The notes under the pieces: generated by a model | What the model saw: the letters and a program-made list of their open reading frames with translations, nothing else | Databases searched by the model: none | Told to the model about the DNA's origin: nothing | Shown: one piece after another, positions 19,361 through 38,297 of the stretch | Numbering within the stretch: position 1 is the first letter of the stretch | Layout: each line of letters opens with the position of its first letter | NCBI RefSeq assembly: GCF_913053745.1 | Contig: NZ_CAJXGF010000002.1 | Location: 1-64,000, forward strand | Direction of reading: 5' to 3' | From: an uncultured Nitratireductor sp. | GTDB taxonomy: Bacteria; Pseudomonadota; Alphaproteobacteria; Rhizobiales; Rhizobiaceae | Length of the DNA: 64,000 bases | Position numbers and translations under genes: made by a program

Positions 19361-20332
19361 TTGATGAGAAAATTATCGAAACTCTTCGGAGCCGCCGTCG
19401 TGTGGACGTCGCTTTCCGTTGCCGGCGCGGCAGCGGCCGAATGCATTGCTCCCGCCGATCCGGGCGGCGGCTGGGACTTCACCTGCCGCACTATCGGCAA
19501 GATGCTCTTCGATCAGAAGCTGGTGGACGCACCGGTACAGGTCACCAACATGCCAGGCGGCGTGGGTGCCGTCGCTTATGCCGACGTCATGTCGTCGCGT
19601 GCCGATGATGCGGAACTGATGGTCGCCACGTCCACGGTCGGCGTCACGCAGATCGCACAGGGCAAATATCCGGCAGACACATCCGTTATGCGCTGGGTGG
19701 CGATGCTTGGCACCGATGTCGGCGTGATCGTCGTGCCGAAGGATTCGGACTTCGAGACGCTCGACGATCTGGTCGCAGCGCTTAAGGACGATCCGAGCGC
19801 GCTTGCGGTTGCAGGTTCTTCCGGCGCGGGTGGCTGGGACCATATCCGCCTTCTCATGCTGGCACAGGCGGCAGGCCTTTCAGGCGACGAGTACAAGCAG
19901 ATTCGATGGGTCCAGTTCGACGGCGGCAGCCCGGCCGTCACGCAGATGATCGGCGGCCAGGTTCAGGCGGTCTCCACCGATCTCGGCGAGATTGCTGGAT
20001 TTGTGGAGTCGGGCGACATCCGCATTCTTGCGGCCCTCTCCGACGACCGCATTCCCGCATTCCCGGATTCGCCCACCGCCAAGGAGCAAGGACTCGACGT
20101 GACCGGTTATAACTGGCGCGGTTTCTATACGGGTGGCGAGGTTTCAGACGACGGCTACAATGCCTGGGTCGAGCGCCTGCAGAAGCTTTATGACACCGAC
20201 GACTGGAAAGAGACCGCCAAGGCCAACGGCCTGGTGCCGGTCTGGCGCGGCGGCGACGAATTTGAAGCCTATGTGAAGGACCAGTCCGATCAGATGCGCA
20301 AGATTTCCCAGGAGATCGGAGTCATCAAGTGA
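19361..20332 (+). CDS. Tripartite tricarboxylate transporter substrate-binding protein (TctC/Bug family)
   Basis: Signal peptide, ECIAPADPGGGWDFTCRTIGKMLFDQ, followed by TctB and TctA. Confidence 0.93.
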   Translation: MMRKLSKLFGAAVVWTSLSVAGAAAAECIAPADPGGGWDFTCRTIGKMLFDQKLVDAPVQVTNMPGGVGAVAYADVMSSRADDAELMVATSTVGVTQIAQGKYPADTSVMRWVAMLGTDVGVIVVPKDSDFETLDDLVAALKDDPSALAVAGSSGAGGWDHIRLLMLAQAAGLSGDEYKQIRWVQFDGGSPAVTQMIGGQVQAVSTDLGEIAGFVESGDIRILAALSDDRIPAFPDSPTAKEQGLDVTGYNWRGFYTGGEVSDDGYNAWVERLQKLYDTDDWKETAKANGLVPVWRGGDEFEAYVKDQSDQMRKISQEIGVIK

Positions 20333-20760
20333 CAGACAGGATCGTCGGCCTTTTTCTTCTGGCCATTTCGATCTGGTACGGCGTGACCGCGGGGGACTAT
20401 GAGGCGAGCTTCGGTGACCCTCTCGGCCCCGCGGCCTTTCCCATCATGCTGTCCGTGCCTGCGGCCATCCTCAGCCTGGTCATGATCGTTCGGCCGGACG
20501 AGGAGCCGGGCTGGGTCACGGGCAAGCCGCTTTTTTTGCAGGTGGCGGCGGTCTCGCTCCTGCTTGCCTATGCCGGCTTTCTGGAGGTGCTCGGCTTTCC
20601 GCTCGCCACCTTCATTGCCGTCGCGCTTTTCGGGCGCATTCTGCGCAGCTCCTGGCCGAAATCCATCCTCTCGGCGGCGGTCATGAGCGCGGTCCTGTTC
20701 CTTACCTTCGACAGGCTGCTCGGATTGCCGCTGCCGCTTCTTCCAGAATTCGTGAGCTGA
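20329..20760 (+). CDS. Tripartite tricarboxylate transporter TctB family protein
   Basis: 143 aa, four predicted TM helices, overlaps tctC stop, precedes tctA. Confidence 0.9.
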   Translation: MTDRIVGLFLLAISIWYGVTAGDYEASFGDPLGPAAFPIMLSVPAAILSLVMIVRPDEEPGWVTGKPLFLQVAAVSLLLAYAGFLEVLGFPLATFIAVALFGRILRSSWPKSILSAAVMSAVLFLTFDRLLGLPLPLLPEFVS

Positions 20761-20764
20761 CTCC

Positions 20765-22273
20765 ATGGACATGCTATCCGCTCTTGCGCAAGGCTTTGCG
20801 GTTGCTATCACGCCCACCAACCTGGCTTTGGCGCTGTTCGGCTGCTTTGTGGGGACACTGATCGGCGCTCTGCCGGGGCTTGGGCCCGTGAACGGCGTCG
20901 CCATTCTCATACCGCTTGCCTTCTCGCTCGGGCTGGAGCCCACCTCGGCGCTCATCATGCTGTCATGCATCTATTACGGCTGCATGTATGGCGGGCGCAT
21001 CTCGTCGATCATGCTCAACATCCCCGGTGATGAGCCGGCCATCATGACGACGCTGGACGGTTATCCCATGGCGCAGGCCGGCAAGGCGTCGGAGGCGCTT
21101 GCCATCTCGGCCGTCGCTTCCTTCGTCGGTGCCACCTTCGCCACCATCGGGCTGACGCTGTTTGCGCCGCTTCTGGCCAAAGCTGCCATCTATTTCGGTC
21201 CGGCAGACTATTTCGCGCTCTATGTCATGGCCTTCGCCACCATTGGCGGCATCACCTCGGTCAATCCGTTCAAGACATTGCTTGCCGCCTTCATCGGCTT
21301 GATGATCGCCACGGTCGGCCTCGACCCTGCCACCGGCACGGCGCGATACACGCTCGGTTCGTTCCATCTTTACGACGGATTCGACCCGATCGTTGCGATT
21401 GTCGGTCTGTTCGCGATTTCGGAAGTGCTCGTCTATCTGGAGCGGGTGCATGAAGGCGAGGCGAAGATGGTGCCGCTCGGCCGCGCCCTGCCGCGTTTCA
21501 AGGACATGATGGCGGGCGGCTGGGCCAATTTCCGCGGCTCGGTCATCGGTTTCGTCTGCGGCATCCTGCCGGGCGCCGGCGCATCGCTCGGCGCGTTCAT
21601 GTCTTACATCGCCGAGCAGCGCTGGAGCGCCAAGGACGGCAAGTTCGGCCAGGGCGACCCGCGCGGCATCGCCGCTCCGGAAGCCGGCAACAACGCCGCG
21701 TCCGGCGGCGCGCTCATTCCCATGCTCACGCTCGGCGTGCCCGGCAGCGGCACCACGGCCGTCATGCTGGCGCTGCTCATCTCGCTCAACATTCAGCCCG
21801 GCCCGCTGCTCTTCGACCGGCAGCCGGAACTGGTCTGGGGCCTCATCGCCGCGCTTTATCTCGCCAATGTCGCGCTGCTCATCATGAACATTCCGATGAT
21901 CGGCCTTTTCACGCGCATGCTCTCCATGCCCCAATGGGTGTTGATGCCTTTCGTGGTGATGGTGAGTTTTCTCGGCGTCTACTCGATCGGCCATTCGACC
22001 TTCGACCTGTTCGTCATGGTCGGGTTCGGCGTGATGGGCTATATCCTGCGCATGCTGGGCATTTCGCTGGTGCCGGTCATTCTGGGGTTGCTTCTGGGAG
22101 CCGACATGGAAAACAATCTGCGCCGCGCGCTTTCCATCTCGAACGGCGATTTCCAGATTCTGTTTTCAAGCCCGATCGCGCTCGCGCTCTACGCCATCAC
22201 CGCCACCATGCTCGGCCTCGCCTTTCTGCTTGCCTTCCGCGCACGCAGAAGGAACCCCGCTGCGGCAGGCTGA
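20765..22273 (+). CDS. Tripartite tricarboxylate transporter permease TctA
   Basis: 502 aa; GTLIGALPGLGPVNGVAILIPLAF, GGRISSIMLNIPGD, LTLGVPGSGTTAVML. Confidence 0.96.
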   Translation: MDMLSALAQGFAVAITPTNLALALFGCFVGTLIGALPGLGPVNGVAILIPLAFSLGLEPTSALIMLSCIYYGCMYGGRISSIMLNIPGDEPAIMTTLDGYPMAQAGKASEALAISAVASFVGATFATIGLTLFAPLLAKAAIYFGPADYFALYVMAFATIGGITSVNPFKTLLAAFIGLMIATVGLDPATGTARYTLGSFHLYDGFDPIVAIVGLFAISEVLVYLERVHEGEAKMVPLGRALPRFKDMMAGGWANFRGSVIGFVCGILPGAGASLGAFMSYIAEQRWSAKDGKFGQGDPRGIAAPEAGNNAASGGALIPMLTLGVPGSGTTAVMLALLISLNIQPGPLLFDRQPELVWGLIAALYLANVALLIMNIPMIGLFTRMLSMPQWVLMPFVVMVSFLGVYSIGHSTFDLFVMVGFGVMGYILRMLGISLVPVILGLLLGADMENNLRRALSISNGDFQILFSSPIALALYAITATMLGLAFLLAFRARRRNPAAAG

Positions 22274-22295: not shown

Positions 22296-23150
22296 TCATC
22301 CGAAAACAACGGTCTTGTGGCCGTTCATCATGACCCGGTTCTCCAGGTGCAGCTTGACCGCGCGAGCCAGAACCCGACTTTCGATGTCGCGGCCGGTAGC
22401 GACGAAATCCTCCGCCGTCATGGCATGGGTCACACGCTCGGTTTCCTGCTCGATGATCGGTCCCTCGTCCAAATCCGGCGTCACATAATGCGCCGTAGCA
22501 CCGATCAGCTTCACCCCGCGCTCATGCGCCTGGTGATAGGGCTTTGCACCCTTGAAGCTCGGCAGAAACGAATGATGAATGTTGATCACCTTGCCGTAGA
22601 GCCGGTTGGACAGGTCGTTGGAGAGCACCTGCATGTAGCGCGCGAGAATGACGAGATCGGCGCCGGTTTCCCTGAACAGTTCGAGAAGCTTCATCTCCTG
22701 CTCGGCCTTATTGTCCTTCGTCACCTTCCAGCAGTGATAGGGAATGCCCTCCATCTCCGCCGTGCCGCGTGAATCCTCGTGATTGGAAACGATGGCCACC
22801 ACCTCGGCGTCGAGCCAGCCGACGCGGATCTGGTAGAGCAGGTGCAGAAGCGCATGATCGAACTTCGACACCATGATGACGATCTTCGGCCGCCGTGTCG
22901 TGTCGGTGATTGCGGTCTTCATGTCGAAGCGGGCAATGGCCGGTTCCAGCGCGCGCAAGAGACCGTCGCGCTCCACGCCCTCGGGCGCGGTGGTGGCGAT
23001 GCGCATGAAAAAGCGGTTGGTCTGACGATCCCAGAACTGGTTGGATTCGGCGATGTTCGCGCCCAGACCGGCGAGTTCCGTCGTCACCGCGGCAACGATG
23101 CCGGGGCGGTCCTCGCAGGTGAGATTGATGTGAAACGTCTTCTCGGTCAT
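22296..23150 (-). CDS. purU: Formyltetrahydrofolate deformylase PurU
   Basis: ACT domain (FHINLTCEDRPGIVAAVTTELAGLGANI) plus formyltransferase domain (INIHHSFLPSFKGAKPYHQAHERGVKLIGATAHYVTPDLDEGPIIEQ). Confidence 0.96.
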   Translation of the reverse strand: MTEKTFHINLTCEDRPGIVAAVTTELAGLGANIAESNQFWDRQTNRFFMRIATTAPEGVERDGLLRALEPAIARFDMKTAITDTTRRPKIVIMVSKFDHALLHLLYQIRVGWLDAEVVAIVSNHEDSRGTAEMEGIPYHCWKVTKDNKAEQEMKLLELFRETGADLVILARYMQVLSNDLSNRLYGKVINIHHSFLPSFKGAKPYHQAHERGVKLIGATAHYVTPDLDEGPIIEQETERVTHAMTAEDFVATGRDIESRVLARAVKLHLENRVMMNGHKTVVFG

Positions 23151-23203
23151 GGCGCGCCTGAACTGGTGGGTTGCGGAATGGATGCCCGAGCGGGCGCTGG
23201 AAT

Positions 23204-24007
23204 TTATACGCCATCGATCCAGGATTGAAACCGCCTTAGCGTATCCTCGTCGCCGGCAACGGTGTTGCTCTTTTCGGGGTAAGCGCCCGAGCGAACGTCT
23301 TGGGCGAATTCGCCATAGGCGGCAATGCGCTCATCCTGAAGCCGCGCACGTTCGGCAGCGAAATTCCGATACACTTTCGCGTGACGTGGCACGTGTCCGG
23401 TATTCGCCCCAAGCACATCGTCGGAAAAGAGATACTGCGCATCGCAGCCCGCGCCTGCGCCCATGGAGATCATGAAAAGCGTGCTGCGCCGGGTAATCTC
23501 CGTGGCAATGAGGTCGGGCACCACCTCGATCTCGGCTGCAAACGCACCGGCGCCTTCCAGCGCCTTTACTTGTTGCCAGACGTGTTGAGCGCTCTCAAGG
23601 GTTTTTCCGACGGCCTTGAACCCGCCAGTCCACGTCGCTTTGGAGGGAATCAGACCCACATGACCGCAGACCGGAATACCATCGGCGGCGAGCCGCGCGA
23701 TGGTCGACGTGCCTGCCGCGCAATAGACCGCATCGGCGCTCGCGCGAACCAGCCGGAAGGCCCAGCGAACGAAGTCGTCCGTTGTGCCGATTTCATAGAA
23801 ATTCGCGCCCGGCACGGCAAAAACGGTCGGGGCGGCATCGCGAAAGTTGGGATCGAGCATGAGGACAGGCGGCACCGATACCAGGTCGATGCCGGCGCGT
23901 TCAGCCGCTTCGGCCTCATCCAGGGTTTCGACACGCAACATCGAGAGTTGGCGTTCGCCGCGCAGCACAAGCAGGTCGTGAACGGTCAGGCGTTTGGAAA
24001 TTTTCAC
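23204..24007 (-). CDS. 3-methyl-2-oxobutanoate hydroxymethyltransferase (PanB) family protein
   Basis: KISKRLTVHDLLVLRGERQLSMLRVETLDEAEAAERAGIDLV, DGIPVCGHVGLIPSKATWTGGFKAVGKT; PanB-like TIM barrel. Confidence 0.85.
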   Translation of the reverse strand: MKISKRLTVHDLLVLRGERQLSMLRVETLDEAEAAERAGIDLVSVPPVLMLDPNFRDAAPTVFAVPGANFYEIGTTDDFVRWAFRLVRASADAVYCAAGTSTIARLAADGIPVCGHVGLIPSKATWTGGFKAVGKTLESAQHVWQQVKALEGAGAFAAEIEVVPDLIATEITRRSTLFMISMGAGAGCDAQYLFSDDVLGANTGHVPRHAKVYRNFAAERARLQDERIAAYGEFAQDVRSGAYPEKSNTVAGDEDTLRRFQSWIDGV

Positions 24008-24010
24008 GGC

Positions 24011-25195
24011 TTATCCCTTCAGAAGTTTCTTCAGGTTCACGTCCGGATTGTCCAGAAGATCGGGCGGCACGGGCTGCGCCCGTTCGATCAGTTTCTCGGC
24101 GATGGATATGTGCCGGGCGACGGCGTTGCCCGAACCCACCCCACTCGCGGAAAAAAGACATCCACGTTCGTCCGTCTGAAACAGAACGAAAGCGCCGTCA
24201 CCGAGATCGCGATGGATGAAAGGGCGAGCGAGATCGGGCAAGCCGGCGATCTGAAGGCCGAGATCGTACTGATCCGACCAGAACCAGGGCGTAGTTGAAA
24301 AGGCGTTCTGCGCGCCCAGCATCGCATGGGCGGCATGTGCGCCCTGGTCTTGCGATGCGCGCCAGCTTTCCAGCCGAACGCGTTGGCCGCGAAAGGGAAA
24401 ATTGCAGCAATCGCCCGCCGCGAAGATATGCGGGTTTTGTGTGGCGAACCTGTTGTCGACAACAATGCCGTTATTGACTGCGAGGCCGGCTTCCTCAGCC
24501 AATCGCGTTTCAGGAAGGGCGCCCACACCGGCAATTACGATGTCGGCGTCGATATGCCGACCATCCGTGAGAACAACACCATCCGGTCCGGCTTGCAGCA
24601 CCTGCGCGCAGAAGATGAACCTCACCCCTTCGGCTCGGTGACGCTTCTCGAAAACCGCGGCGATTTCGATTGGTACGATGCGCGCCATCAGCCGGTCGGC
24701 GGCTTCAAGCACCGTCACCTGCGTTCCGAGAGCCCGGGCCGTGGCAGCGAGTTCGAGGCCGATGAATCCTCCGCCGATCACGGCGATCCGTCGGCTTGAT
24801 TTCAGAACGGTCAGAATCGTCTGTGCGTCCTCGAGCGTACGCAGTGTCTGGGCGCATTCCAGACCGGCAAAGACTCTTGCCCGCGCGCCGGTGGCGATCA
24901 ACAGCTTGTCGTAGGACAGTTTTTCGCCACCATCGACCACGACCTGACGCGTTGCCGGTTCAATGCCGGCGATACGTAAACCGCGCCGCAGTTCGATGCC
25001 GGCTTCTGCGTAGTGTTCCTCTTCGGCGATTGGTTTCGGCGCCGACGCGGTGTTCTTCGAAAGGGGCGGGCGCTCATATGGCAGATGCGGCTCTTCGCCA
25101 ATCAGCGTAACCGCGCCCTGATATCCCGCCTCGCGCAACGTGAATGCCGCGCGAACGCCGCATTCACCCGCACCGATGATAACCATCCCGTTCAT
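24011..25195 (-). CDS. NAD(P)/FAD ferredoxin reductase, MocF-like
   Basis: MNGMVIIGAGECGVRAAFTLREAGYQG, TGARARVFAG, IAVIGGGFIGLELAATARALG, IFAAGDCCNF; start inferred at 25195. Confidence 0.88.
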   Translation of the reverse strand: MNGMVIIGAGECGVRAAFTLREAGYQGAVTLIGEEPHLPYERPPLSKNTASAPKPIAEEEHYAEAGIELRRGLRIAGIEPATRQVVVDGGEKLSYDKLLIATGARARVFAGLECAQTLRTLEDAQTILTVLKSSRRIAVIGGGFIGLELAATARALGTQVTVLEAADRLMARIVPIEIAAVFEKRHRAEGVRFIFCAQVLQAGPDGVVLTDGRHIDADIVIAGVGALPETRLAEEAGLAVNNGIVVDNRFATQNPHIFAAGDCCNFPFRGQRVRLESWRASQDQGAHAAHAMLGAQNAFSTTPWFWSDQYDLGLQIAGLPDLARPFIHRDLGDGAFVLFQTDERGCLFSASGVGSGNAVARHISIAEKLIERAQPVPPDLLDNPDVNLKKLLKG

Positions 25196-25518
25196 CGGCG
25201 CGCGCAGGCGATGTCGACCAGCACGCGGCCGTCTTCGACCTTTACCGGATAGGTCTTGAGGTTGACGCAGACAGGCGCCCCTTTCGCCTCCCCAGTGCGA
25301 TAGTCGAAGCGGCCATTGTGCTTGGGGCATTCGATGATGTGATCCATCACGAGGCCGTCCGCCAGATGCACCTGCTCATGCGTACACAGACCGTCCGTCG
25401 CATAAAAAAGCGCGTCCGGGCTACGATAAATGGCGAAGGTGCGTCCCTCGTGGTCGAACCGGATAAGATCTTCGTCTTCCACGTCGTCGACCCCGCAGGC
25501 CTCGATCCATTGCGACAT
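25192..25518 (-). CDS. Rieske-type [2Fe-2S] ferredoxin, MocE-like
   Basis: 108 aa; CTHEQVHLADGL and CPKHNGRFDYRTG (C-X-H...C-X2-H) Rieske motifs. Confidence 0.9.
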   Translation of the reverse strand: MSQWIEACGVDDVEDEDLIRFDHEGRTFAIYRSPDALFYATDGLCTHEQVHLADGLVMDHIIECPKHNGRFDYRTGEAKGAPVCVNLKTYPVKVEDGRVLVDIACARR

Positions 25519-25530
25519 GATTTCCTCCCC

Positions 25531-26664
25531 TTAGTTGTCTGTCGAAAGCGGATTGGCGGGGCCATGAAACTCTTCCCGATAGGGCTTGGCTGTCGGCGGC
25601 AATTCCCGCTTGATGAAGTAGTCGTCGTAACGCAGCTGTCGCAGGAAGGCCGGCAACATCTCCCGGTAGCCGTCGAAGATGGACGGGTTCGGCGCCGGCA
25701 GGTCGTGCTTGATCAGCTCGTGCAGCTTCGGCAGCGCGTGATAGGGCACCATGGGAAACATGTGGTGCTCCACATGGTAATTCATGTTCCAATAGATGAA
25801 GCGGCTCACCGGGTTCATCAGGACGGTGCGGCTGTTGAGCCGATGATCGGTCACATCCTCTGCGAGCCCCCCATGTTGCAGCAGACCCGTCATCACGTGA
25901 TGCCAGGCGCCGTAAAGGCGCGGCCCACCGATCAACAGGAAGGGAAGAATCGAGTTCACGACAATGGCGAGGCCGAGCGTTGCCGCGTAGATTGCCACCC
26001 ATATACGCGCGACACGGATCACCTTTCGCTGCTCCATCTCCGGAATGAAGTCCTGTTCCGCGGCGCTCAGCCGGCCGGCGGCATTGCGCGTCATGTCGAT
26101 GAGCGCATGCCAGGCGTCGACAACGCCGAAGACATTGAGGATCAGGCGCGCGAGATCCGGCGGGCGCATCACGGCGATTTCCGGGTCGCGCCCGACAACA
26201 ATGGTATCCGTATGATGGCGCGCATGGCTCCAGCGCCAGGTCACCGGATTGCGCATGATCATGAATGAAGCGATCTGATACACGGCATCGTTCATCCAGC
26301 GTGTTTTGAACGCGGTCCCGTGACCGCACTCATGCCAACGTGAATCCGTCGCCGAACCGTAGAGCACGCCATAGACCAGAAAGAACGGTGCCGACCACCA
26401 GGACGGCCAAAGCGCGGCAGCGATCACGGCGAACAGGACCATTCCGCCGAGCCAGACGATCGTGTCGCGAATTGCCGGCGTGTCGCTGCGCTTCATCAGT
26501 GTCTTCATTTCCTTGCGCGGCACATCGGTGTGATACCACTCTGCCGAGGCCAGCCCACGCTCGACGGCGTCCCTCGCGTCCGCGCCTGTCAGGTCGTAAT
26601 TGCGCTGCCGCACGGCCGGACCGTTCGATGAAGTGTCCAGCACGGTTATGGGGCCTGTGATCAT
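25531..26664 (-). CDS. Membrane fatty-acid-desaturase/hydroxylase-type di-iron oxygenase, MocD-like
   Basis: Three His boxes HECGHGT, HARHHTDT, HVEHHMF; start inferred at MITGPITVLD (26664). Confidence 0.88.
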   Translation of the reverse strand: MITGPITVLDTSSNGPAVRQRNYDLTGADARDAVERGLASAEWYHTDVPRKEMKTLMKRSDTPAIRDTIVWLGGMVLFAVIAAALWPSWWSAPFFLVYGVLYGSATDSRWHECGHGTAFKTRWMNDAVYQIASFMIMRNPVTWRWSHARHHTDTIVVGRDPEIAVMRPPDLARLILNVFGVVDAWHALIDMTRNAAGRLSAAEQDFIPEMEQRKVIRVARIWVAIYAATLGLAIVVNSILPFLLIGGPRLYGAWHHVMTGLLQHGGLAEDVTDHRLNSRTVLMNPVSRFIYWNMNYHVEHHMFPMVPYHALPKLHELIKHDLPAPNPSIFDGYREMLPAFLRQLRYDDYFIKRELPPTAKPYREEFHGPANPLSTDN

Positions 26665-26723: not shown

Positions 26724-26767
26724 TGATGGTTTTTCTATCATTTAACATCATTCTGTGATTATAATCA
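26724..26767. promoter_or_regulatory. Candidate operator region between mocD-like and lacI genes
   Basis: TGATGGTTTTTCTATCA imperfect dyad (26724-26740) and perfect palindrome TGATTATAATCA (26756-26767). Confidence 0.4.
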
Positions 26768-26791: not shown

Positions 26792-27841
26792 ATGGCAAAG
26801 CGCCCCACCATTGCGGATCTGGCCGAAAGAGCGGGCGTCAGCGTTGCGACCGTAGACCGGGTTCTGAATGGTCGGCATCGTGTGCGCGAAGAAACCGCGC
26901 GGCGCGTCTATGAAGCTGCAAACACCATCGGCTATCATGCGTCGGCGCTTATACATCAGCGCATCACAGCCGATTTGCCGCGCATCGAGCTCGGCTTTCT
27001 GCTTCAGAAGTCACGCCAGCCTTTCTATCAGGCCTTCACGCGGGCACTGGAAGAAGCGGTTGCCGCCCGAGATGACATTCGTGGACATGCCCAGATCGAG
27101 TTCGCGAAAAGTGCTGCCCCTGGCGACATGGCGGAGGCGCTCCTTGCATTGGGGGCACGCACACAGGCCGTGGGCGCCGTGTGCCTCGATCATCACTTGG
27201 TGACGCGGGCGGTCGAGGCGCTCAAGGCCGAGGGAAAACCGGTTTTTTCTCTACTCTCGGATTTCGCGCAGGGCGTGCGCGAAAGCTATATCGGTACCAA
27301 CAACATGAAAGTGGGGCGTACGGCGGCCTGGATGATTTCACGCACCGCGCGGCGGCCGGGCAAGGTGGCGTTGTTTGTCGGCAGTCATCGCTGGCATGGA
27401 CACGAGTTGCGCGAGACTGGCTTCCGCAGTTTCTTCCGGGAGCACGCGCCGGAGTTTGAGATGCTGGAAACGCTGGTCAATCTCGACACCCGTCAAGTGA
27501 CCCACGAAGCGACGCTTAGCCTGATTTCCCGCCATCCGGACATTGCCGGCTTCTATGTGGCTGGTGGGGGAATGGAAGGAGCCATCGCTGCGCTGCGTGA
27601 GGAAATCGGAAATGGACGGTTCATATCGGGCGAAGGTCCTTCCGTGATCGTCAACGAGGTAACCCCGGACACCACTTCAGCACTCCAGGAACACATCGTC
27701 ACCGCCATTGTCGCGACACCTCTGCGCGAGTTGGCAAACAGTGTGGTGGATCTGATGGTTACTGCGGTGCACTCTGGCCCCGGTGAAGCACCAGGTCAGC
27801 TTTTCCTGCCCTTCGGCTTCCATGTGCCTGAAAGCCTTTAA
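26792..27841 (+). CDS. LacI family transcriptional regulator
   Basis: TIADLAERAGVSVATVDRVLNGRHRVREETARRVYEAANTIGY LacI HTH plus periplasmic-binding-like domain. Confidence 0.95.
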   Translation: MAKRPTIADLAERAGVSVATVDRVLNGRHRVREETARRVYEAANTIGYHASALIHQRITADLPRIELGFLLQKSRQPFYQAFTRALEEAVAARDDIRGHAQIEFAKSAAPGDMAEALLALGARTQAVGAVCLDHHLVTRAVEALKAEGKPVFSLLSDFAQGVRESYIGTNNMKVGRTAAWMISRTARRPGKVALFVGSHRWHGHELRETGFRSFFREHAPEFEMLETLVNLDTRQVTHEATLSLISRHPDIAGFYVAGGGMEGAIAALREEIGNGRFISGEGPSVIVNEVTPDTTSALQEHIVTAIVATPLRELANSVVDLMVTAVHSGPGEAPGQLFLPFGFHVPESL

Positions 27842-27978
27842 TCCGTTTTTGTTGCACTTCGGGTCTGTTTTCCATCACAGATGATGGAATTTCATTCAGG
27901 ATTACATTGACCGTTTTTTGCTGCGCAGACATCCTTGCGGGAACAGGCTCGAGGGCCTTTGATCCCGAGGAGAAAGCA

Positions 27979-28812
27979 ATGACGGCGACAGCTTCGCTTT
28001 TCGCGCTCAATCATATGTGCGCGCCCAACCGCACGGTTTCCAGTCTCTTCGACCTGGCCGTTTCGCTCGGCATGACCGGTGTGGAGATCCGCAACGATCT
28101 TGAGGGCAACGCGATCCTGGATGGCACGCCACCCACCGAGATACGACGGGCAGCGGAGACGCGAGGGCTGCGTGTTCTGTCGATCAACGCTCTGCAGCGT
28201 TTCAACGATTGGAATGACGTACGCGGGGCCGAGGCGCGCGCGCTCATCGCTTATGCACGGGACTGCGGCGCCGAGGCGCTGGTGCTCGTGCCGGTCAACG
28301 ATGGCACGGGTCGGAGCGACGGGGAGCGTCAGGCCAATCTTCGCATCGCACTGAAGGCATTGCGGCCGCTTCTGGAAGAGGCCGGCATCGTCGGGCTGGT
28401 CGAGCCGCTGGGATTCGAGACCTGTTCCTTGCGATTCAAATCCGAAGCCGTCGAAGCCATTGCATCGCTGAATGCGGATGGCATTTTCCAGCTCGTCCAC
28501 GACACGTTCCACCATTGTCTGGCGGGCGAGAAGGAGCTGTTTGTCCGCGAGACGGGACTGGTCCACATTTCCGGCGTCGCCGACAACGCGCTTTCACTGC
28601 GGGACATGCGTGACGCAGATCGTGTTCTGGTCGATGGCGGTGACAGGCTCGGCAATGTCGAGCAGCTTGCCGCTCTCCTGTCGAGTGGCTTTCGCGGATC
28701 GTTCTCGTTCGAGCCCTTTGCCGAAAGCGTGCACAAAACGGACGACCTGCGTGGCGCTCTTGAGGCAAGCATCGCGCATATCCAAGACAATGCCTTTCGT
28801 GCGCTCGCGTAG
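27979..28812 (+). CDS. Sugar phosphate isomerase/epimerase family protein (TIM barrel), MocC/inosose-isomerase-like
   Basis: FALNHMCAPNRTVSSLFDLAVSLGMTGVEIRND, VHDTFHHCLAG, VHISGV; AP-endonuclease-2-like barrel. Confidence 0.83.
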   Translation: MTATASLFALNHMCAPNRTVSSLFDLAVSLGMTGVEIRNDLEGNAILDGTPPTEIRRAAETRGLRVLSINALQRFNDWNDVRGAEARALIAYARDCGAEALVLVPVNDGTGRSDGERQANLRIALKALRPLLEEAGIVGLVEPLGFETCSLRFKSEAVEAIASLNADGIFQLVHDTFHHCLAGEKELFVRETGLVHISGVADNALSLRDMRDADRVLVDGGDRLGNVEQLAALLSSGFRGSFSFEPFAESVHKTDDLRGALEASIAHIQDNAFRALA

Positions 28813-28876
28813 AGCGGAGAAGTAAGCAGTCCTGGAACGAGGAATGGAATGGAATTTCGCCTTGACGAGAATGCAG

Positions 28877-28930
28877 AAAATAGAATAAATATTACATATT
28901 GAGTTTTGAACGGTGTTGACATTCTATTTT
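28877..28930. repeat. Inverted repeat AAAATAGAAT ... ATTCTATTTT
   Basis: Perfect 10-bp arms at 28877-28886 and 28921-28930, in the AT-rich mocC-mocB intergenic region. Confidence 0.6.
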
Positions 28931-29061
28931 GATGGAGTGTCTGGCGACTGAAGAGCGAGGAGTCGGTCGTTCATGCGCCGGGGGAGGCTCATGCATTCCC
29001 ATTGAACGATTCCGGTCAAAGCGGGTGTTGCCGGGCACCCATCGTGTGGAGGAGCATTCAG

Positions 29062-30006
29062 ATGAAAAAGCTTATGATGGGCGTTGCCGTCTCGGCATTG
29101 ATGACGACTTCGGCGATGGCCGAGACGGTCGGTGTCTCGATGGCCTTGTTCGACGACAATTTCCTGACGGTTCTGCGCAATGGCATGGTCGAATATGCCG
29201 ACACGCTCGATGACGTGGAACTTCAGGTCGAGGACGCGCAGAACGACGTCGGCAAGCAACTCAACCAGATCCAGAACTTCATCGCCTCGGGTGTCGATGC
29301 GGTCATTGTGAATCCGGTCGACACCGACGCCACGGTGGCCATGACCAAGGCGGCCGCGGATGCAGGCGTGCCGCTCGTCTTCGTCAACCGCGAACCGGTC
29401 AATGTCGACGATCTGCCGGACAATCAGGCTTTCGTCGCATCCGATGAACGTGAGTCCGGTACGCTCGAAACGCAGGAAATCTGCCGGCTGTTGAAGGAGC
29501 AGGGCAAGGGCGAGGGTGCCAAGATCGTCGTCATGATGGGTGAGCTCTCCAACCAGGCCGCTCGGATGCGCACGCAGGACGTTCATGACGTGATCGCCAC
29601 AGACGAATGTTCCTTCATGGAAATCGTGGAAGAGCAGACCGCCAATTGGCAGCGCACCGAGGCGACCGATCTGATGACCAACTGGCTGTCCGCCGGTCTG
29701 GAGTTCGACGCACTCGTCTCCAACAACGACGAAATGGCCATCGGCGCGATCCAGGCCATGAAGGCTGCCAATATCTCCATGGATGAGATGCTGGTGGGCG
29801 GTGTGGACGCCACCCAGGACGCTTTGGCCGCTATGGCTGCGGGCGATCTCGACGTGACGGTGTTTCAGGATGCGGCCGGCCAGGGCAAGGGCGCGCTGGA
29901 CGCCGCGCTCAAGCTCGCCAAGGGCGAGGACGTCGATCAGAAGGTGTATATTCCCTTCCAACTCGTGACGCCGGATAATATGGACCAGTTTACGACCAAG
30001 AACTGA
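29062..30006 (+). CDS. Sugar/inositol ABC transporter substrate-binding protein, MocB-like
   Basis: Signal peptide MKKLMMGVAVSALMTTSAMA, ribose-binding-type fold (QLNQIQNFIASGVDAVIVNPVDTDA, NNDEMAIGAIQAMK). Confidence 0.9.
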   Translation: MKKLMMGVAVSALMTTSAMAETVGVSMALFDDNFLTVLRNGMVEYADTLDDVELQVEDAQNDVGKQLNQIQNFIASGVDAVIVNPVDTDATVAMTKAAADAGVPLVFVNREPVNVDDLPDNQAFVASDERESGTLETQEICRLLKEQGKGEGAKIVVMMGELSNQAARMRTQDVHDVIATDECSFMEIVEEQTANWQRTEATDLMTNWLSAGLEFDALVSNNDEMAIGAIQAMKAANISMDEMLVGGVDATQDALAAMAAGDLDVTVFQDAAGQGKGALDAALKLAKGEDVDQKVYIPFQLVTPDNMDQFTTKN

Positions 30007-30084
30007 TCGTCCGGACTGGCGGCGGCGGCCGCAGGGCCGCTGCCATCCCGCCGGTGTAAGCCGGCTATCTTGGCGGAAAAAACG

Positions 30085-31113
30085 ATGGCAAACCAGGCAC
30101 AAGCAGTTTCCGGCAGCGCCGCGGACATGCCCCAGAAGCGACCGCGCTCCCACGAGTTGAACGCGTTGCTCGGCCTTGTCGGCATTGCGCTCATCTTCGA
30201 GCTTCTCGGTTGGATCTTTCAGGGGCAGAGCTTCCTGTTCAACACGCAGCGCCTTTCCATCATGATCCTGCAGGTTTCGGTGGTGGGCATCATCGCCATT
30301 GGCGTCACGCAGGTCATCATCACCGGGGGCATCGACCTTTCATCGGGTTCGGTGGTCGGCGCGACGGCGATGATCGCCATGAGCTTCGCTCAGGTGAGCA
30401 CTTACCCGCGCGCGGTCTATCCGGAACTGACCGATCTTCCCGTCATCGTTCCCATTCTCGTCGGCCTCGCTTGTGGTATCGTGGCGGGCATGATCAACGG
30501 CCTGTTGATCGCCTTTACGAAAATTCCGCCTTTCATCGCCACGCTCGGCATGATGGTGACGGCACGCGGCATCGCCAAATGGTACACGAGGGGCCAGCCG
30601 GTTTCGTTTCCCACCGACAGTTTTGCAGCTCTCGGTCAGGGCATGACGCCGGTCTTCGTTTTCCTGGCGATTGCGCTCCTCTTCCATATAGCCCTGAAAT
30701 ACACCGTCTACGGCAAGCATACCTATGCCATCGGTTCCAACGAACAGGCGGCGCGCATGTCGGGCATCAATGTCGAGCGGCATCTGGTGCTGGTCTACAC
30801 CATTGCGGGTCTTCTCGCCGGTCTTGCCGGCATGGTGATCGCGGCACGTGGTCTCACGGCGCAGGCCGGCATGGGAATCATGTACGAGCTCGACGCCATC
30901 GCCATGGCCGTTATCGGGGGCGTGTCGCTTTCGGGCGGGCGCGGCTCCATCGTCGGCACGCTGATCGGCGCCGTCATCTTCGGTGTCATCATCTCAGGTT
31001 TCACCTTCCTGCGGCTCGATGCCTACTATCAGGAAATGATCAAGGGCGTGATCATCGTCGCCGCCGTGGTGGCCGATATGTACCGCCAACGTATGCGCCC
31101 GCAGTCGCGGTGA
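30085..31113 (+). CDS. Sugar ABC transporter permease (RbsC/BPD_transp_2 family)
   Basis: GVTQVIITGGIDLSSGSVVGATAMIA, YAIGSNEQAARMSGINVE; possible TTG start at 30070. Confidence 0.93.
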   Translation: MANQAQAVSGSAADMPQKRPRSHELNALLGLVGIALIFELLGWIFQGQSFLFNTQRLSIMILQVSVVGIIAIGVTQVIITGGIDLSSGSVVGATAMIAMSFAQVSTYPRAVYPELTDLPVIVPILVGLACGIVAGMINGLLIAFTKIPPFIATLGMMVTARGIAKWYTRGQPVSFPTDSFAALGQGMTPVFVFLAIALLFHIALKYTVYGKHTYAIGSNEQAARMSGINVERHLVLVYTIAGLLAGLAGMVIAARGLTAQAGMGIMYELDAIAMAVIGGVSLSGGRGSIVGTLIGAVIFGVIISGFTFLRLDAYYQEMIKGVIIVAAVVADMYRQRMRPQSR

Positions 31114-31129
31114 CGTTCGGGAGGAAATC

Positions 31130-31915
31130 ATGGCAGGCGAAGAACGCAACGTTATCCTCAGGACCGAGGGGCTGACCAAGCATTACGGCGGCGTGCACGC
31201 GCTGGAAGATGCCGATTTCGAGCTTCTCGAAGGCGAGCACGTGGCCATTGTCGGCGACAACGGCGCGGGTAAGTCCACATTCGTCAGGCAGATCACGGGA
31301 GTGGAGCGTCCGACCGCTGGCAAAATCCTTTTCGAAGGGCGCGAAATGGAGTTTCACAGCCCCGTCGACGCCCGCGAGGCGGGCATCGAGGCGGTGTTCC
31401 AGAATCTGGCGCTCGCCGACGATCTCGATGTGCCGTCGAACATCTTCCTTGGCCGGGAAGAGACTTATTTCAATCTCGGTCCGTTCAGCTTCCTGAACGA
31501 GAAGAAGATGTTGCAGCGCAGCCAGGAAGCGCTCGAGAAAACGGGTGTGAAAATCCCCAATCTGCACAATTCCATCGCCAACATGTCGGGCGGGCAGCGC
31601 CAGTGCGTGGCCATCAGCCGGGCGGCCAGCTTCGCCTCGAAGCTGATCCTGATGGACGAGCCGACGGCGGCGCTGGGCGTTCAGGAAACCACTCAGGTGG
31701 AAAACATAATTCGCGGCCTGAAGGAGCGCGGCATTCCGCTGATCCTCGTCAGCCACAATCTCAGGCAGGTGTTCAACCTGGTCGACAAGATCTGGGTGTT
31801 CCGCCGTGGGCGCATCGCCGGCATGCTGGAAGCCGACAAGACGGACGGCAACGAAGTGGTTTCGCTGATCACCGGCGTGCAGTCCGGCGTCCACGAGAAC
31901 GCCAGCTATATCTGA
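31130..31915 (+). CDS. Sugar ABC transporter ATP-binding protein (single ABC domain)
   Basis: VGDNGAGKSTFVRQITG Walker A, MSGGQRQCVAISRA signature, LILMDEPTAALG Walker B. Confidence 0.95.
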   Translation: MAGEERNVILRTEGLTKHYGGVHALEDADFELLEGEHVAIVGDNGAGKSTFVRQITGVERPTAGKILFEGREMEFHSPVDAREAGIEAVFQNLALADDLDVPSNIFLGREETYFNLGPFSFLNEKKMLQRSQEALEKTGVKIPNLHNSIANMSGGQRQCVAISRAASFASKLILMDEPTAALGVQETTQVENIIRGLKERGIPLILVSHNLRQVFNLVDKIWVFRRGRIAGMLEADKTDGNEVVSLITGVQSGVHENASYI

Positions 31916-31953
31916 GAGACAGCTCTTAGAAATCCAGGCAGAAAGACGCTTTC

Positions 31954-32955
31954 ATGACCGTAAACTTCGCTCTTCTCGGCGCCGGGCGTATCGGCAAGGT
32001 GCACGCCAGGGCCATCGCCGCCAGTGTGGATGCACGGCTTGTCGCCGTCTCCGATGCCTTTGCCGATGCAGCACAGACCGTGGCCGAAGCCTACGGTTGC
32101 GCGGTGTGCAGCATCGATGAGGTCGAAACCGACAAGAGCATCGACGCTGTCGTCGTCTGTACGCCCACCGACACGCATGCCGATCTGATCGAGCGTTTCG
32201 CGCGTGCAGGCAAGGCCGTGTTTTGCGAAAAGCCCATCGATCTCGATCTCGCCCGTGTCAAGCACTGTCTCGGCGTGGTGGAGGAAACGGGTGCCGTGCT
32301 GATGGTCGGCTTCAACCGTCGTTTCGATCCGCATTTCGCGGCCGTGCGCGCAGCAATCGATGAGGGGCGCATCGGCCCTGTCGAGATGGTGCAGATCACC
32401 TCGCGCGATCCGGGGCCCCCGCCGATCGGCTATATTGAGTCGTCCGGCGGCATCCTGCGCGACATGACGATCCACGATTTCGACATGGCGCGCTTTCTTC
32501 TCGGCGAGGAACCGGACACGGTGTTCGCCACCGCCTCGGTGCTGGTCGATCCGGCCATCGGGGAGGCGGGCGATTTCGACAGCGTGTCGGTCATCCTCAC
32601 CACCGCATCGGGCCGCCAATGCAGCATCTCCAATTCGCGCCGCGCCACCTATGGCTATGACCAGCGCATCGAAGTGCTCGGTGCGGAGGGGGCCGTCGCG
32701 GCGGAAAACCAGCGCCCCGTTTCCATAGAGATCGCCGATGCGCGGGGCTTCACCCGACCGCCGCTGCATGATTTCTTCATGACCCGTTACACCGAAGCCT
32801 ATGCCGCGGAGATCGCGGCCTTCGTCGCCGCCATCGCGGGAGGAAAGCCGGCGGCGCCATCCGGCGAAGACGGCCTGCGTGCGCTGGCACTGGCTGATGC
32901 CGCCCTTCTTTCGGTGCGTGAGCGTCGCGCCGTAAAACTGTCCGAAATTCTCTGA
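31954..32955 (+). CDS. Gfo/Idh/MocA family oxidoreductase (inositol 2-dehydrogenase/MocA-like)
   Basis: NFALLGAGRIGKVHARAIAAS Rossmann motif, FCEKPIDLDL, GFNRRFDPHF. Confidence 0.92.
   Translation: MTVNFALLGAGRIGKVHARAIAASVDARLVAVSDAFADAAQTVAEAYGCAVCSIDEVETDKSIDAVVVCTPTDTHADLIERFARAGKAVFCEKPIDLDLARVKHCLGVVEETGAVLMVGFNRRFDPHFAAVRAAIDEGRIGPVEMVQITSRDPGPPPIGYIESSGGILRDMTIHDFDMARFLLGEEPDTVFATASVLVDPAIGEAGDFDSVSVILTTASGRQCSISNSRRATYGYDQRIEVLGAEGAVAAENQRPVSIEIADARGFTRPPLHDFFMTRYTEAYAAEIAAFVAAIAGGKPAAPSGEDGLRALALADAALLSVRERRAVKLSEIL

Positions 32956-36245: not shown

Positions 36246-38297
<2,052 letters not shown>

Follow-up and report, generated by a model that had tools for sequence, protein, structure and literature searches.

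In a 64,000-nucleotide stretch of DNA from an uncultured Nitratireductor sp. of the Rhizobiales (contig NZ_CAJXGF010000002.1, positions 1 to 64,000; hereafter the window), a divergent homologue of ketopantoate hydroxymethyltransferase (KPHMT, PanB), here referred to as PanB', is encoded between a MocDEF-type demethylase and PurU in an operon of the order mocD-mocE-mocF-PanB'-purU. The main finding is the clade to which this protein belongs: judging from its residues and phylogeny, PanB' is a conserved, repurposed side-clade of PanB that lost its metal site, and it is tied to oxidative demethylation. Its role is probably the transfer of one-carbon (C1) units to folate, a step without a known dedicated enzyme. 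An original prediction made from the letters of the window had claimed five co-directional, tightly spaced genes at this place. The open reading frames, all on the reverse strand, and their junctions (in operon order 12 bp, a 4-bp overlap, 3 bp and 53 bp) were confirmed against the window sequence. Its interpretation was borne out in part: the C1-disposal pathway stood, both specific readings of the PanB homologue did not, and the inositol genes as well as the PanB'-purU pair at rhizopine loci had been overlooked.

A PanB homologue very probably without a role in pantothenate synthesis

PanB' matches the Pfam family PF02548 with 136 bits and falls below the cut-offs of both NCBIfam panB models (TIGR00222, 100.7 vs 207.55; NF001452, 124.2 vs 272). 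Its AF2 model (pLDDT 93.1) retrieves exclusively KPHMT at Foldseek ranks 1-28 among the PDB matches, with E values down to 1e-18. Like PanB (EC 2.1.2.11), it has the TIM-barrel fold, His136 and Glu181 as well as the C-terminal half of the protein. Unlike PanB, it lacks Asp45, Asp84, Lys112 and Glu114, and its orthologue from Rhizobium etli has no pantothenate function.

These differences hold across the clade. In alignments of 48 rows against E. coli PanB (whose numbering is used for the PanB residues) and of 19 more distant rows, 67 sequences altogether, H136 and E181, the catalytic residues of PanB, are present in 67/67. Among the Mg2+/oxo-acid residues of PanB, D84 and E114 occur in none of the 67 and K112 in two; all 48 rows have a gap over D45-S46, and the D45 segment is unconserved in the 67-row alignment. 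Other residues were gained relative to PanB, namely Thr125-Trp126 and an extra Glu159 two residues before E181, which is found in every one of the 67 sequences where seven of seven canonical proteins carry Val. Arg208-His209 and Arg227 (window numbering) were likewise gained and vary hardly at all among the 67. On the tree, a 100/100 branch separates PanB' from the canonical rows.

Canonical panB lies on another contig of the window genome (357 bits), so that PanB' is not the sole copy. For R. etli, a second PanB-like gene on plasmid p42e, RHE_PE00443, has been described, in whose product a metal-binding domain was not detectable and which neither replaces panB nor, when expressed, complements a panB auxotroph (PMC3082293). 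Plasmid p42e contains exactly one PF02548 match, and this gene sits in a mocD-mocE-mocF-PanB' operon divergent from lacI; RHE_PE00443 is therefore the counterpart of the window PanB'. Since a canonical panB exists elsewhere, the metal and oxo-acid residues are lost, the clade is separate and RHE_PE00443 does not complement, PanB' is very unlikely to act in pantothenate synthesis. The suggested detour of that pathway was hence rejected, and the second proposal, a PanB-type reaction on an oxo-acid, is unlikely in view of the loss of the Mg2+/oxo-acid residues across the clade.

In comparison with two relatives, dN/dS amounts to 0.08-0.22 across the five operon genes, indicative of purifying selection, with 0.085 and 0.118 for PanB', which is therefore kept by selection. 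This signal of selection in each gene and the recurrence of the operon order in other genomes show that the order is not a matter of chance.

PanB' accompanies oxygenases of different folds

A survey of the order covered 348 genomes and yielded 43 PanB' at a minimum of 50% identity; 37 of them have MocD at a distance of no more than 8 kb, which bears out the prediction that the linkage between the PanB homologue and moc genes is conserved. Co-occurrence of PanB' and MocD in these genomes gave p ~1e-29, uncorrected for relatedness. Of the six remaining copies, two adjoin a sterol-desaturase-type oxygenase, three lie at contig ends or on fragments, and one is a true orphan. Among 88 fetched loci, which were picked by similarity to PanB' and are rich in Mesorhizobium, MocD and MocE were each present in 83.

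More distant PanB' adjoin other oxygenases, i.e. sterol-desaturase-type enzymes, Rieske oxygenases and PhyH dioxygenases; the nearest PDB relative of the Rieske oxygenase is carnitine monooxygenase. The oxygenase type switches at least five times on the PanB' tree (34 labelled rows, with the PhyH loci left out), and the neighbouring substrate genes also differ, including inositol dehydrogenase, ribokinase and DUF4432. As the presence of a hydroxylating enzyme is constant while oxygenase fold and substrate genes vary, PanB' most plausibly handles the common C1 product of the oxygenases. It thus tracks genes for demethylation and not those for inositol.

Folate enzymes form a second recurrent neighbourhood. 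PurU is encoded after PanB' in loci of Phyllobacterium, Rhizobium and Sinorhizobium, and purU alone, without an oxygenase, adjoins PanB' in locus L083. On a Neotabrizicola plasmid that also has genes for type IV secretion, mocE-TIM-mocF-PanB'-folD-purU-iolG form a compact cassette (L029:3020-9078).

A proposed C1 transfer to tetrahydrofolate

With somewhat more confidence than doubt, PanB' is proposed to be a metal-independent hydroxymethyl/formaldehyde:tetrahydrofolate (THF) transferase that would make methylene-THF; the chemistry, THF binding and exact substrate in the following scheme are inferred. The ABC transporter encoded next to the operon would import an O-methylated inositol, whose methyl group would be hydroxylated by MocDEF to an O-CH2OH hemiacetal (or free formaldehyde). 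PanB' may then pass the C1 unit to THF to give 5,10-methylene-THF, which could be oxidized into 10-formyl-THF by FolD, a housekeeping enzyme assumed to be present in the window genome. PurU would free formate from this intermediate and thus recycle THF, and the freed inositol could enter IolG and then IolE-D-B-C. The predicted oxidative demethylation with its C1 unit drained via THF and PurU is supported and largely right. In favour of a C1 transfer by PanB' count its linkage to MocD, its persistence while the oxygenase fold changes, the recurrent THF enzymes, the residue pattern, the failure of RHE_PE00443 to rescue panB, the slowness of the uncatalysed reaction of formaldehyde with THF, and the nearby iolG and iolBEDC.

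PanB is a metal-requiring class II aldolase that forms an adduct of methylene-THF and the enolised oxo-acid (PMC4814558). PanB' would be a KPHMT that runs in the retro direction; it retains the catalytic His and Glu and has shed the Mg2+/oxo-acid site, by which PanB stabilises an enolate. Since a hemiacetal or formaldehyde donor forms no enolate, the metal site would be dispensable, and the reaction would still need a general acid/base pair and folate. The residue pattern of PanB' matches what this change predicts. The uncatalysed condensation of formaldehyde with THF was measured as far too slow to matter in vivo, and an uncharacterised enzyme for this reaction was left possible, with PanB considered as a promiscuous candidate (PMC7073904).

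Similar routes are known from other demethylation systems. In the purU-mabO-folD operon of pAO1, the C1 unit of demethylation likewise passes via methylene-THF, FolD and PurU to formate (PMC3891541). The same holds for sarcosine-oxidase clusters with folD and purU, in which the C1 unit reaches formate through methylene-THF; such a cluster was found on p42e. In the mabO and sarcosine-oxidase systems, the amine oxidase itself carries a fused THF-binding domain. The window oxygenase, in contrast, has no THF-binding domain, and PanB' would fill that place. Fae, which acts with tetrahydromethanopterin (H4MPT), would be a functional analogue of PanB' in joining formaldehyde to a C1 carrier, with unrelated fold and carrier.

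Several observations weigh against a C1 transfer by PanB'. In the 348-genome survey, 28 of 66 MocD copies have no PanB' nearby. Nine of these solo copies share at least 70% identity; six of their genomes have PanB' elsewhere and three are without any PanB' match. Since MocD copies without a nearby PanB' are this common, demethylation can work without it. Conversely, a recognised oxygenase was not found near PanB' in loci L083, L144, L153, L154, L174 and L179. The distributions of PanB' and Fae are not complementary, and genomes of the order can have both. To our knowledge, no THF-binding residues are defined in KPHMT, and the literature searched holds no biochemical assay of PanB'. Fae was also considered as a stand-in in MocD genomes without PanB' and rejected, as only few of these have Fae and several PanB' genomes have it too. 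No consistent replacement C1 gene emerged in mocDEF loci without PanB': purU lies beside mocF in L134, and the others have unrelated neighbours.

Among the alternatives, PanB' might be a hemiacetal lyase that works without folate and releases formaldehyde from the O-CH2OH substrate, leaving inositol or a different polyol; PurU would then only relieve general C1 overflow. The frequent position of PanB' beside hydroxylating enzymes and the retention of general acid/base residues upon loss of the metal would suit such a lyase. Yet O-CH2OH hemiacetals fall apart spontaneously, wherefore little selection would be expected, and both the adjacency of folD-purU or purU and the descent of PanB' from a THF enzyme point to THF. 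The lyase is accordingly regarded as unlikely.

Also improbable is an assimilatory KPHMT or aldolase variant that condenses formaldehyde with another acceptor, be it an aldol acceptor or a pathway intermediate. It would preserve the ancestral aldol chemistry of the PanB fold along with the catalytic Glu, but it would have to do so after loss of the metal and oxo-acid ligands that a class II aldolase requires. Moreover, no common acceptor is apparent among neighbours that vary from inositol dehydrogenase to ribokinase and carnitine-monooxygenase-like proteins. Less credence still is given to a non-catalytic partner of the oxygenases, i.e. a folate- or oxygenase-binding scaffold or effector. The strong PanB'-MocD linkage and the partly dismantled active site could be explained this way, but the invariance of the catalytic His and Glu in the 67 PanB' speaks for catalysis, and the four unrelated oxygenase folds that accompany PanB' argue against specific docking. 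Finally, an accessory ketopantoate synthase in an incidental position, as automatic annotation and the PF02548 match might suggest, can be practically dismissed given the missing metal site, the separate clade, the canonical panB and the published non-complementation, which refutes it for the R. etli orthologue.

Locus features and substrate class

The operon combines a desaturase-fold oxygenase with a MocE-family ferredoxin and a FAD reductase, the gene make-up of a MocDEF-type demethylase (Table 1). MocD carries the His boxes HECGH, HARHH and HVEHH, as in membrane diiron oxygenases. An in-frame upstream ATG at 26811 would provide an alternative mocD start, which is less likely as it would overlap the start of lacI. 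The divergent operon (26792-32955) encodes the LacI regulator, a TIM-barrel protein, the sugar ABC transporter and inositol 2-dehydrogenase; the divergent arrangement of lacI and mocD was seen again in relatives.

Table 1. Genes of the mocDEF-PanB'-purU operon and of the divergent operon in the window.
Feature	Position	Strand	Family evidence
purU, 10-formyl-THF deformylase	22296..23150	-	TIGR00655, 332 bits vs cut-off 286
PanB', divergent KPHMT homologue lacking the metal site; proposed THF C1 transferase	23204..24007	-	Pantoate_transf PF02548
mocF, FAD/NAD(P) ferredoxin reductase	24011..25195	-	Pyr_redox_2 PF07992 + Reductase_C PF14759
mocE, Rieske-type [2Fe-2S] ferredoxin	25192..25518	-	MocE_fam TIGR02377, 182.6 bits vs cut-off 136.15
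mocD, membrane diiron oxygenase, fatty-acid-desaturase fold	25531..26664	-	FA_desaturase PF00487, 4e-37
LacI-family regulator, divergent from mocD	26792..27841	+	PF00356, PF13407
Sugar isomerase/epimerase-type TIM barrel	27907..28812	+	PF01261
Sugar/cyclitol ABC transporter substrate-binding protein (SBP)	29002..30006	+	PF13407
ABC transporter permease	30070..31113	+	PF02653
ABC transporter ATPase	31130..31915	+	PF00005
iolG, inositol 2-dehydrogenase (Gfo/Idh/MocA protein)	31954..32955	+	TIGR04380, 419.7 bits vs cut-off 355

Genes for iolB, iolE, iolD and a fused iolC follow on the same contig, approximately 10 kb beyond the window end. Because of these genes and the IolG equivalog in the divergent operon, the substrate class of the locus is most likely O-methyl-inositol (pinitol- or ononitol-like). 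With inositol genes both inside the locus and close by, the window MocDEF probably demethylates an O-methyl cyclitol. In a transcriptome of Rhizobium mesoamericanum, mocDEF homologues were up in Mimosa root exudate, in which pinitol was the component at highest concentration, and the authors interpreted this rise as rhizopine catabolism (PMC5789663). The explanation by pinitol is our own and fits an O-methyl-inositol substrate.

A 12-bp palindrome (TGATTATAATCA, 26756-26767) in the mocD-lacI gap was considered as LacI operator and dropped after comparison with relatives, as eight of nine such gaps contain no palindrome of at least 10 bp and the ninth has different ones. Further away in the window, the tripartite tricarboxylate transporter genes TctC and TctA (19361-22273) lie convergent to purU, and a thiC gene is found at 36246-38180.

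Variants of the locus

A recognisable mocF is missing from many Mesorhizobium loci with mocD-mocE-PanB'. One of them, L050 (7318-10789), has DUF4432 and a further ABC transporter next to these genes and probably serves a different methylated sugar. In L157 (7995-11858), possibly a locus for O-methylated ribose, PanB' has a ribokinase and an ABC transporter of the ribose type next to it. In L158 (7995-9982), the PanB' gene and the end of a gene for a Rieske oxygenase of carnitine monooxygenase kinship overlap; this pair is a candidate N-demethylation system in which the C1 step would be the same.

PanB' also occurs in alphaproteobacterial genomes of 1.4-1.6 Mb with about 30% GC and 94-99% completeness (L166, L167, L168, L169 and L170). 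One of the small low-GC genomes, G565, has four copies, of which two form a tandem that diverges from two PhyH dioxygenase genes. That streamlined genomes hold several PanB' copies suggests an important role.

PanB' and purU at rhizopine loci

The window resembles the rhizopine locus mocCABRDEF of Sinorhizobium meliloti L5-30 and Rhizobium leguminosarum in mocDEF, sugar-type ABC transport and inositol-type dehydrogenases, but its regulator is LacI and not MocR, and it further differs by a complete ABC operon and the IolG equivalog. A true rhizopine locus was therefore rejected for the window, as no MocR is encoded next to mocDEF and a LacI-family regulator occupies that place. The window SBP misses the NCBIfam rhizopine SBP model NF052284 (35 vs 420), a model that does not discriminate here because SBPs of MocR-positive loci miss it too.

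The published gene list of the rhizopine locus comprises mocCABRDEF only (PMC6668481, PMC10107442). PanB' and purU are absent from it, and yet mocDEF-PanB'-purU occurs in relatives of this locus. As rhizopine-type loci, 14 plasmid records were collected whose mocR-mocB pair resembles the Phyllobacterium one at a query coverage of at least 80%. PanB' is present at all 14 loci found, placed by coordinates (within a few kb) in 12 and read directly in two; every locus read has mocDEF-PanB'-purU, with purU directly behind PanB'. The annotated order is iolE (mocC), Gfo/Idh, mocA, mocB, mocR, mocD, mocE, mocF, PanB', purU, and at one locus mocD is missing from the annotation and present in the sequence. 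MocR of L119, one of these loci, passes the rhizopine MocR equivalog model NF052281 (739 vs 650). In the literature searched, mostly open-access and without the original moc papers, no relevant paper linked rhizopine with panB or purU.

Implications

No enzyme dedicated to the condensation of formaldehyde with THF is known, and the conserved, metal-less PanB clade, fixed next to oxidative demethylases and FolD/PurU, offers a concrete, directly testable candidate. We are evenly divided on the wider proposal that PanB' would be the first enzyme dedicated to loading THF with formaldehyde (or with a hydroxymethyl hemiacetal), having arisen from PanB by loss of the metal site, being common to four unrelated oxygenase families and representing an overlooked step of rhizopine catabolism. 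If true, the proposed role of PanB' would account for the reported PanB-like protein without pantothenate function, and two genes would be added to the classic rhizopine locus. Annotations of the panB type would then need correcting in many genes, a single genome collection having at least 574 related stretches.

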